This document shows positions 19,215 to 60,620 of a stretch of 64,000 nucleotides of DNA, in pieces. The stretch comes from Pseudomonadota bacterium (lineage in GTDB: Bacteria; Chloroflexota; UBA5177), in assembly GCA_021324655.1 (NCBI GenBank), contig JAJPIP010000017.1:1-64000 (forward strand), in the 5' to 3' direction. A model generated the notes under the pieces. It did not search any database and was not told the DNA's origin. It worked only from the letters and a program-made list of their open reading frames with translations. Made by a program: the position numbers and the translations under genes. How positions within the stretch are numbered: position 1 is the first letter of the stretch; every line of letters begins with the position of its first letter.

Positions 19215-19320
19215 TCCCGGTAATGGCGTCCCCGTAGTAATGGCGTCCCCGTAACGGCGATCCCGTAATGGCGATCCCGTAGTGGCGGCCCCGTAGTGGC
19301 GGCCCCGAGTGGCCGCCAGC
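19215..19320. repeat. Degenerate tandem array, about 6-7 copies of a ~14-bp unit (CCCGTARTGGCGRY)
   Basis: tcccggtaatggcg/tccccgtagtaatggcg/tccccgtaacggcga/tcccgtaatggcga/tcccgtagtggcggc/cccgtagtggcggc/cccgagtggccgcc. Confidence 0.75.
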
Positions 19321-57604: not shown

Positions 57605-59464
57605 GTGACAGGGAGCATCCGTTCGCGTCTGCTCATCGGGCAGGCGATGACTATCCTGATTCTCGTGCTGTCGTGCACGGCGTCACTGGGAGTTGCCGGC
57701 AGCGTACGCGCCGGGTTTGCCGGCGTGGTGCGGCATGACGATGCGCTGATCGCGAACGTCACCCTCCGCGCCAAGCTCCTCGATGACGAGGAAACGGGCC
57801 TGCGCGGCTACCTGCTCGTCCGCCAACCTCTCTTTCTTCAGCCATACCGGGCGGCCCTTGCTCGCCTCCCCGCCGCGCGTTCTGCATCGCTCCGTCTAGC
57901 CAGAGGTGATCCCGGCGAGATTCGCTTGCTGAACGCTCTCTCGCGCGGCGCCGGGCGCTGGGAGCGCTGGGCGCGCTCGATGCTCGCGGCCCCGCCCGCA
58001 CGGGCGACCCCGGCACGGCTCGAAGCACAGATGCTGACCGGCAAGCGTCTCTTCGATGCCTATCGTCGCGCGTCCGACGCGATCTTGCAAAGGCTCTTCG
58101 CGCACCGGGTCGCCACCCTCACGGCGGCGAACTCGACCGTGCGGACGATGACCATCTTGCTCGCCGCTCTCTTCTTCCTGGCCGTGCTCGGTGCTCTGGT
58201 CGCCGGTTTGTGGACGCTCCGCAGTCTCCAGCGTCCCCTGATGCGTCTTGCCTGGCTCGCCGACCGCATCGCCGAGGGGGATTTGACCGCCGGCGCACAC
58301 GTGGATCCGATCCGAGAGTTTGGCTCGCTGGTGTCTGCCATGGAACGCATGCGGCGAGAGATCAGGGGCCAGCGCAATCTCTCCACGATGCTCGCCGCCT
58401 GTCTTCGTCCGGACGATGTCTACCGGACCTTTACGGAGGCGCTTCGCCAGCATGTCCATGCCGATCGCCTCAGCGTGAGCAAGGTTGGTCCGGGGCCGCA
58501 TGAGATGACCAGCGTGTTCGTCGCCGGTGACGGCACAGAAGGTCTCCCGGAAGGGACGACGACCTCGCTCGCCGGGTCCATCGCGTCCCGTGCCTATCAG
58601 ACGGGTCGGCCGGTGCTCCGCGCCGATCTTGCCGCTCTTCCGCCCGCCGACCTCTTCGACGATGAGAGGAAAGCCCTGGCGGCCGGCATCCGGTCGCTGG
58701 CCATCATTCCCCTCATGGTGCACGGACGCGTGCTGGCCACCCTGAATCTGGGCAGCCGCCAGGCCGCCGGCTACAGTGAGCAGGCATTGGGCCCGATCCT
58801 GACGCTGGCGCCGATGGTGGCATCGGCGATTGAAAACGCTCAGCTCTATGAGTCTCTGAGCGATGCCAAGCGCCAACTCGAGAGTCAGCGGGATCTGGAG
58901 TACGGCCGCGCGCGCCGGGACGCGCTGACCAATTTGGGGAACCGGCTGCGCCTGGAAGAGGATCTCAGCGTCCTCCATGCCCGCGCCCAGCGGTATGGGC
59001 ACACCTACAGCCTGGTCCTGTGCGACGTCGACTACTTCAAGGCGTACAACGACCACTACGGCCATCCGGCCGGCGATACGGTCCTGGCGACCGTCGCCGA
59101 GACGCTGACGACGAGCGTGCGCCGCGGCGACGCCGTCTACCGCTACGGCGGGGAGGAGTTCCTGATCCTCCTCCCGGAACAGGAGGAAGAGGAGGCGTAC
59201 GCGGCGGCGGAACGTCTTCGTGCCGCCGTCCAGGCAAGGTTGCTACCCCATGAGGCACGGCCCGATCTCGACATCGTCACGATCAGTGCCGGTGTGGCAA
59301 CTCTCCACGGGGCCAGTCTGCCGGAGATTCGAGATGTGATCGCCGAGGCGGACGCCGCTCTCTATCATGCCAAGGCGGCAGGACGGAACCTCGTCGTGGC
59401 CGGGGCCGGGGCGGGCCTCCGCGTCCTCAAAACGCGGGAGCGCGCCCGAACCAGCACCGCATAG
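57605..59464 (+). CDS. Diguanylate cyclase: CHASE3-like/TM/HAMP/GAF/GGDEF
   Basis: DDEETGLRGYLLVRQPLFLQPY; HAMP RSLQRPLMRLAWLADRIAEGDLTA; GAF; DALTNLGNRLRLEEDL...RYGGEEFLILLPEQ. Confidence 0.93.
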   Translation: MTGSIRSRLLIGQAMTILILVLSCTASLGVAGSVRAGFAGVVRHDDALIANVTLRAKLLDDEETGLRGYLLVRQPLFLQPYRAALARLPAARSASLRLARGDPGEIRLLNALSRGAGRWERWARSMLAAPPARATPARLEAQMLTGKRLFDAYRRASDAILQRLFAHRVATLTAANSTVRTMTILLAALFFLAVLGALVAGLWTLRSLQRPLMRLAWLADRIAEGDLTAGAHVDPIREFGSLVSAMERMRREIRGQRNLSTMLAACLRPDDVYRTFTEALRQHVHADRLSVSKVGPGPHEMTSVFVAGDGTEGLPEGTTTSLAGSIASRAYQTGRPVLRADLAALPPADLFDDERKALAAGIRSLAIIPLMVHGRVLATLNLGSRQAAGYSEQALGPILTLAPMVASAIENAQLYESLSDAKRQLESQRDLEYGRARRDALTNLGNRLRLEEDLSVLHARAQRYGHTYSLVLCDVDYFKAYNDHYGHPAGDTVLATVAETLTTSVRRGDAVYRYGGEEFLILLPEQEEEEAYAAAERLRAAVQARLLPHEARPDLDIVTISAGVATLHGASLPEIRDVIAEADAALYHAKAAGRNLVVAGAGAGLRVLKTRERARTSTA

Positions 59465-59477
59465 CCCGGTCACGAAA

Positions 59478-59521
59478 TTCATCTCAGATTCATCTTGCGT
59501 TCACTTGAACTTCATGATATT
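59478..59521 (+). promoter_or_regulatory. PHO-box-like array: four TTCAY units with exact 11-bp period
   Basis: TTCATctcaga TTCATcttgcg TTCACttgaac TTCATgatatt, unit starts 59478, 59489, 59500, 59511. Confidence 0.5.
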
Positions 59522-59529
59522 GTCGAGGA

Positions 59530-59610
59530 GACAAGTGAATAGCGAGGGGCCAGCACGCAATGATCCTTCGCCGCGATTATCCGCCCGGGGTATCCCGGGC
59601 GCTTCGTTTT
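59530..59610 (+). ncRNA. Hypothetical short transcript between PHO-box-like promoter and hairpin/T-run
   Basis: Possible -10 TATTGT at 59518-59523; hairpin 59582-59601 then cttcgTTTT; start coordinate is estimated. Confidence 0.2.
59582..59610 (+). terminator. Rho-independent-like terminator
   Basis: cgcccggg-gtat-cccgggcg-cttcgtttt, 8-bp stem and T-run on plus strand. Confidence 0.55.
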
Positions 59611-60620
59611 CAGGGAAAGCGCCGGAATAGGGCTCGCAGATCGTTGGAGCGGGCGGCACCGCCGAGGAACGGGCGCACGCCGAAGATCTCTTCGATCGTG
59701 CGGAGCGTGGAACTGTGCGTATACGGGACCGCGTTGTGGAAGCCGTGCCCCCGCGCTGCCGGCGAGAGAACGATCATGCCGATCGGTCCGTCACCGCTCG
59801 ACGCTTCATCCCATGTGATGAAGATAACTCCTCCGTCCCGGTACGCGCGTGAGCGCTGGATGGCGGGAATAACGCGCGAGAGCCAGATGTCACCCTGCTT
59901 GATCGGATTCGATAGGAGGGGGCAGGGGCTGTGCATGTCGTCGCACACATTCGGTGTGATGAAGTTGTAGCGCGCGACGGTGTTATGCCGCAGGTCGCTC
60001 GCCAGTTGTGTGAAGGGGCGAACATGCCGGATGCAGCGCGGGGCATGGGCATTGAGGTTATCGGTCACGTCGTCGAAGTACACGAAGGGATCGTGGCGGG
60101 GCGCGTAGAGGTCTCCCGCGAGGCCGGGAATACCCTGCTCACCGCCGATCGCCAGGATGGAGTGGGCGTCGAAAGGGCAGGTCGTGCCCGTGATGTTCTC
60201 TTCGTACGCACGCCACGAGATACCGGCGTTCTGCAGCAGATCGGCCAGATGGAGCCTGCTGTGCGTGGAATGGGTGGACGGCGACCCGTCGTTGCGGATG
60301 CACCCCGTGTCCGGAAAGCAGTTGGTGCCGGCTTCCAGCCAGAGGTAGTTGGGCAGGCTGGGATGGTTCCCCGGCGGGTTGTCGTACTGCGTGGCGTACG
60401 AGGCGCTCGGCAGGAGGCTGTGATTAATGTACGGCGCCGCCGGATTCCCCGCAATCGCCGACCAGTTGTGATTCTCCATGACGATGAGAAAGACCGTGCG
60501 CAGCGGCGGCGGGGATGGCGGGTTGGTGGCGGCAGGAGCGATATGGGCGGCGGCCCCTGCGCACCCGGCGAGCAGAGCGAGAAGCGCCGGCAGCAGAGGT
60601 CGCAGCAGGGAGTGGTCCAT
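59610..60620 (-). CDS. Acid phosphatase/phosphoesterase family lipoprotein (PF04185-like)
   Basis: Lipobox LLALLAGC; RTVFLIVMENHNWSAIAGNPAAPYINHSLLPSASYATQYDNPPGNHPSLPNYLWL; GVIFITWDEASSGDGPIGMIVLSP. Confidence 0.88.
   Translation of the reverse strand: MDHSLLRPLLPALLALLAGCAGAAAHIAPAATNPPSPPPLRTVFLIVMENHNWSAIAGNPAAPYINHSLLPSASYATQYDNPPGNHPSLPNYLWLEAGTNCFPDTGCIRNDGSPSTHSTHSRLHLADLLQNAGISWRAYEENITGTTCPFDAHSILAIGGEQGIPGLAGDLYAPRHDPFVYFDDVTDNLNAHAPRCIRHVRPFTQLASDLRHNTVARYNFITPNVCDDMHSPCPLLSNPIKQGDIWLSRVIPAIQRSRAYRDGGVIFITWDEASSGDGPIGMIVLSPAARGHGFHNAVPYTHSSTLRTIEEIFGVRPFLGGAARSNDLRALFRRFP

Follow-up and report, generated by a model that had tools for sequence, protein, structure and literature searches.

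A multi-copy family of candidate small RNAs in a Chloroflexi-type lineage, one paralogue of which lies downstream of an 11-bp TTCAY repeat array

Positions 59478-59610 of the window (the whole 64,000-nucleotide stretch of DNA analysed here) are best explained, and we think probably, as a stand-alone small-RNA gene that is controlled through an array of TTCAY repeats and whose product pairs with other RNAs in trans. Comparison of genomes shows a promoter region with the array ahead of a predicted RNA of ~79 nt, in which a single-stranded leader is followed by a hairpin whose loop contains CAGCACGC and by an intrinsic terminator. It also shows that the 3-5 diverged paralogues of each genome keep the leader and the loop, their stems and terminators being variable. 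Each paralogue would answer to its own promoter, that of the window copy being controlled by an OmpR/PhoB-family response regulator on the array, and the paralogues would act in trans, base-pairing by the loop and/or the leader with shared mRNA targets. The features of the region are given in Table 1.

Table 1. Predicted and observed features in and around positions 59478-59610 of the window.
Feature	Positions	Strand	Remarks
Upstream neighbour, CHASE3-HAMP-GAF-GGDEF protein	57605..59464	+	Unlinked to the RNA in other genomes
Array of four TTCAY units, 11-bp period	59478..59515	+	Sequence; conserved, with equal distance to the RNA, in G001, G002 and G004
-35-like TTGCGT	59495..59500	+	Within the array; TTGCRT in 4 of 4 orthologues
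-10-like TATTGT	59518..59523	+	17-bp spacer from the -35; TACTGT, TATGAT and TATGCT in orthologues
Predicted small RNA, ~79 nt, member of the new family	59531..59609	+	Covariance model match 59532-59608
Predicted single-stranded 5' leader, ACAAGTGAATA	59531..59541	+	Conserved; family consensus ACAAYYGAATA
Predicted hairpin 1, GCGAGGGG (59542-59549) with UCCUUCGC (59564-59571)	59542..59571	+	
Conserved CAGCACGC in the loop of hairpin 1	59551-59558	+	
Predicted terminator, hairpin 59582-59601 and T-run 59607-59610	59582..59610	+	Hairpin CGCCCGGG-GUAU-CCCGGGCG; stem sequence different in each member
Convergent neighbour, phosphoesterase family (PF04185)	59610..60620	-	Unlinked to the RNA in other genomes

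The four units (TTCAT, TTCAT, TTCAC and TTCAT) start at 59478, 59489, 59500 and 59511, with the exact 11-bp period that had been noticed in an earlier sequence-only reading of this DNA. The same reading had pointed to a -10-like TATTGT and to a hairpin with a T-run ending at 59610, and both were found, the former together with TTGCGT 17 bp upstream. Based on base composition, four-unit TTCAY arrays are expected at a frequency of 7e-8 per window and 4e-6 per genome, and no other tetramer was repeated four times at 11 bp in the window. When periods of 7-15 were considered, the sole other 4-fold regular tetramer array of the window was a tandem repeat with a 14-bp period at 19242-19310. The whole genome to which the window belongs (G000, 3.8 Mb) contained two exact 4x TTCAY arrays and a third one with 2 mismatches, and the reversed control pattern had no occurrence. 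The fuller motif of the array was TTCAY-N6-TTCAY-N-YTGC-N-TTCAY-N5-CTTCAT. Direct repeats of 11 bp are typical of response regulators of the OmpR/PhoB type, PHO boxes being the best-known case, and it is likely that the array is a binding site of such a regulator. It overlaps the -35/-10 promoter and spans about -52 to -15 relative to the sRNA start, a position that could serve either class-II activation or repression. The role of TTGCGT as a -35 element is ambiguous because other arrays, in which the TGC does not form part of a -35, also keep it. Both the promoter and the transcript are inferred from sequence.

A search of 100 relatives revealed the array in three sister genera (G001, G002 and G004), where a -10 element and the same RNA-like sequence come after it with unchanged spacing. 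The promoter part of this block reads TTCAY-N6-TTCAY-N-TTGC-R-TTCAY-N5-CTTCATG-W-TA, and the RNA part consists, in order, of ACAAYYGAATA, a stem, CAGCACGCA, the second stem arm and a terminator. Identity between genomes was 65-83% in the array region and 15-32% in the 60 bp upstream, the latter being about the level of unrelated sequences. The genes around the block were different. The window block sits after the CHASE3-HAMP-GAF-GGDEF gene, that of G001 directly follows a VWA-domain gene whose apparent counterpart in the window is 3.3 kb upstream, and that of G004 precedes another gene. Since the neighbours differ and the block is conserved, the unit of selection is the array with the RNA, and not the GGDEF or the phosphoesterase gene. 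These observations, in which both the repeat phasing and the hairpin are conserved in relatives, and the multi-copy structured family described below support a short RNA with a start near 59530 and a terminator, as the sequence-only reading had proposed on the basis of a single genome; the array, the -10 and the RNA are conserved together in three other genera. Its further suggestion, antisense control of the phosphoesterase, was not supported: the TTTT of 59607-59610 abuts the stop codon of this convergent gene (59610-59612), the RNA ends there and does not overlap the gene body, and orthologous copies are found beside unrelated genes. We also considered a chance repeat combined with an ordinary terminator of the GGDEF mRNA, to which we assign next to no probability. 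Located 3' of the GGDEF gene, the hairpin may additionally terminate transcripts of that gene, but an array of this kind is hardly expected by chance in the window, the block is conserved in three genera without an adjoining GGDEF gene and the family structure covaries. Termination of the GGDEF mRNA, which the earlier reading had raised as a simpler role of the hairpin, is excluded as the whole story, the same conserved unit occurring away from GGDEF genes.

The first covariance model, built from four copies, recovered additional members within the genomes of these copies, and the two invariant parts, searched as an exact pattern, occurred at 12 places in 4 of 399 genomes of the phylum (0 for the control). 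A second model (R2) raised the number of copies to 17, with 3-5 in each of the five family genomes and E values from 3e-14 to 3e-4. The three copies of the fifth family genome, and an additional paralogue in each of G000 and G004, were gained with this model, which also gave a marginal copy (E 0.0015) in the single order-mate. Members were mostly derived from metagenome-type draft genomes. Each of these 17-18 copies is composed of a leader with small changes (family consensus ACAAYYGAAUA at the RNA level), a hairpin with the loop and a terminator whose sequence varies. The loop is CAGCACGC in 17 of the 18 copies, and the order-mate copy reads UACGCACGC. Several other candidates were discarded. 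G185 and G352 gave matches at chance level (E about 0.01 with 399 genomes searched) that lacked the loop, and nine viral contigs that matched the RNA pattern, several of them near-identical to one another, were not members, none having the family hairpin around the loop. BLAST against plasmids gave no match. An ORF starting at 59560 of the window was dropped as a peptide candidate, its ATG not being kept in other members.

Support for the structure came from several analyses. Across the 18 sequences, 94.5% of cells pair, compared to 65.8% after shuffling. In the 18-sequence alignment, 14 of 16 base pairs were changed on both sides, and the covariation score was 0.719 as compared to 0.196 +/- 0.024 for shuffled alignments and at most 0.14 with the partners slid, values that are biased toward the structure by an alignment fitted to the model. 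RNAalifold, applied to the same alignment, predicted the same two helices on its own. Similarly, in a hand-made composite whose arms had been picked for pairing, 4 of 5 outer stem pairs were changed on both sides, and fold z-scores ranged from -2.5 to -5.8. By this comparative evidence, the copies very probably represent a genuine, conserved and previously uncatalogued sRNA gene family.

When the covariance models of Rfam 15 were used at their gathering thresholds, no family fitted the sRNA. Chloroflexi-1 (RF01698) gave one sub-threshold match (23.6 versus 80 bits), which aligned only a terminator and downstream sequence. Chloroflexi-1 (PMC2864571) is also a Chloroflexi candidate sRNA and its model has 84 positions, but the weak match misses the conserved leader and loop of the new family. 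No other Chloroflexi-specific structured RNA was found in the Rfam and literature searched, and Chloroflexi-1 is listed for one species. Besides, an element conserved in two genera, L214 (G000:C15:26950-28450) and L242 (G002:C30:19900-21400), was observed around GGTCGCACTGAGGCCC...GGGCTCAGCACGCAAA; it has a GGGCUCAGCACGC core in common with the sRNA family and a different frame around this core.

The five family genomes have 3-5 copies each, every one with a terminator and with promoters recognized by sequence alone. The TTCAY array is carried by the window-type paralogue only. A second, syntenic type follows a murA-like gene in all five genomes (the gene belongs to the EPSP_synthase family by Pfam, the name murA being given by sequence). 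An upstream element, TTTATGT..A......GTTRCAAT, is common to the murA-linked copies of four genomes, and G003 has only the GTTACA part. This element is located ~35 nt before ACAAC, and the conserved 5' end of these copies may be a processing site. The remaining paralogues are solitary and lie beside unrelated genes. Several copies are followed by a convergent gene. Such an arrangement argues against a riboswitch or cis attenuator, in which a conserved aptamer and terminator would control the gene downstream. A conserved core followed by a terminator would suit this explanation and a few copies do lie just before a co-directional gene, but convergent genes are downstream of the window copy, the G002 copy and others, and the downstream genes are unrelated between copies, with no constant co-directional gene or function. 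We regard a riboswitch as very improbable.

PHO boxes are tandem 11-bp direct-repeat units near promoters of PhoB/PhoP regulons, and the window array, also made of tandem 11-bp direct repeats, has units similar to the Streptomyces PhoP unit GTTCACC (PMC4415409). The array might then be a PHO box bound by PhoP/PhoB and the sRNA might be regulated by phosphate. However, G000 had no PhoU match, and no match to PstB exceeded the curated cut-off. This genome is 96% complete; that both PhoU and PstB are missing from the assembly alone is conceivable but improbable. G004 has the sRNA together with a complete pst operon, and the units of its pst promoter, spaced at 11 bp, are GTAAC/TTAAC/GTAAC/GAAAC, with TTCAY absent from the region. 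The lack of detectable PhoU and PstB in G000 and the GTAAC-type pst promoter in G004 suggest that TTCAY is probably the site of another regulator. Other TTCAY sites precede genes for surface or secreted proteins. In G000, G002 and G004, an array in reverse orientation is located 7 bp upstream of a TTGACA-17-TANNAT promoter, behind which is the gene for an orthologous proline-rich, LPXTG-type secreted protein; one further G000 array precedes the gene for a 1565-aa secreted-type protein near a histidine kinase gene. The TTCAY regulon seems to be very small, with 1-3 sites per genome. The array upstream of the LPXTG-type protein in three genomes suggests that the signal is more likely to come from the cell envelope than from phosphate, an envelope signal being a reasonable guess, no more. 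With regard to the PhoP/PhoB-like site that the sequence-only reading had recognized, its OmpR/PhoB-type repeat architecture was retained and phosphate control, now quite improbable, was not, no array having been found at the canonical pst genes. An 11-bp TTCAY array by itself should not be taken as a phosphate signal.

Several additional observations were made on arrays and their surroundings. The 11-bp GTAAC-type array between pstS and pstC of G004 (L167:7200-7237) is probably the true PHO box of the lineage, and a regular-expression search of the G005 pst region found neither array type. In three genera (L169, G000:C93; L171, G002:C53; L172, G004:C118), the ~250 nt that separate the LPXTG-like gene from its array-linked promoter form a long conserved 5' leader, GAAAGGGGTGATG...GAGCC...GGCTTTCC...GCGCAGCGATA...AAGGAGTCCTG; it had no Rfam match and may be another structured RNA of unknown kind. 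Exact 4x TTCAY arrays were also located, 10 bp upstream of TATAGT, in other families of the phylum (L005, G065:C4; L006, G014:C151). Their geometry is PhoB-like, and the genes behind them, for a secreted protein and an ABC transporter, are not pst. Occurrences L007-L024 at contig ends of G099 (C119 and C120) belong to a simple 11-bp satellite, TTCACGAGTAG, unrelated to the operator.

A leader and loop that stay fixed while the stems vary, the presence of several copies in each genome and the separate promoters are all features of sibling sRNAs, and the window RNA is most likely a two-component-regulated member of such a group, like LhrC of Listeria. LhrC1-5 are a multicopy sRNA family induced via the LisRK two-component system, whose loops pair with mRNAs (PMC4132741, PMC5880928). 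In both cases a genome has several related sRNAs of similar size, with a hairpin loop, a single-stranded stretch and a terminator, tied to a two-component response regulator (here by a predicted site). On the other hand, the two are unrelated in sequence, the LhrC copies are almost identical, unlike those of the new family with its highly diverged stems, and here the array is on one paralogue only. We lean toward base pairing of the paralogues in trans. The loop complement, CGTGCTGAGC, occurred 38 times in G000, compared to 9 for the reversed pattern; three of the 38 were the sRNA genes themselves and most others were in coding frames. The duplex energies of the sRNAs with array-linked leaders were mostly no better than those of shuffles, and a target search covering array-linked leaders and exact loop complements gave no convincing target.

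RNAs that titrate a regulator are known from the CsrA/RsmA sponges. If the leader and loop were a protein recognition site, the paralogues might similarly act as a sponge or decoy, which would be consistent with a leader and loop fixed in all copies, with free stems and with target pairing that is overall no better than chance. However, the loop is without a CsrA-type GGA motif and each RNA has one site, not several, and we consider this explanation unlikely. Sibling sRNAs that pair in trans remain the favoured reading. A possible, if doubtful, extension is a lineage-specific network of paralogues, each reporting a different signal and all converging on shared targets via one conserved loop; one paralogue would be reached via an envelope-type two-component system and TTCAY arrays and one would be coupled to murA, with an undescribed partner protein or pairing rule.

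The analysis adds a well-supported RNA family, counting 17-18 members. With its covariance model, its operator motif and murA as a syntenic anchor, regulatory RNA becomes testable in an uncultured Chloroflexi-type lineage.
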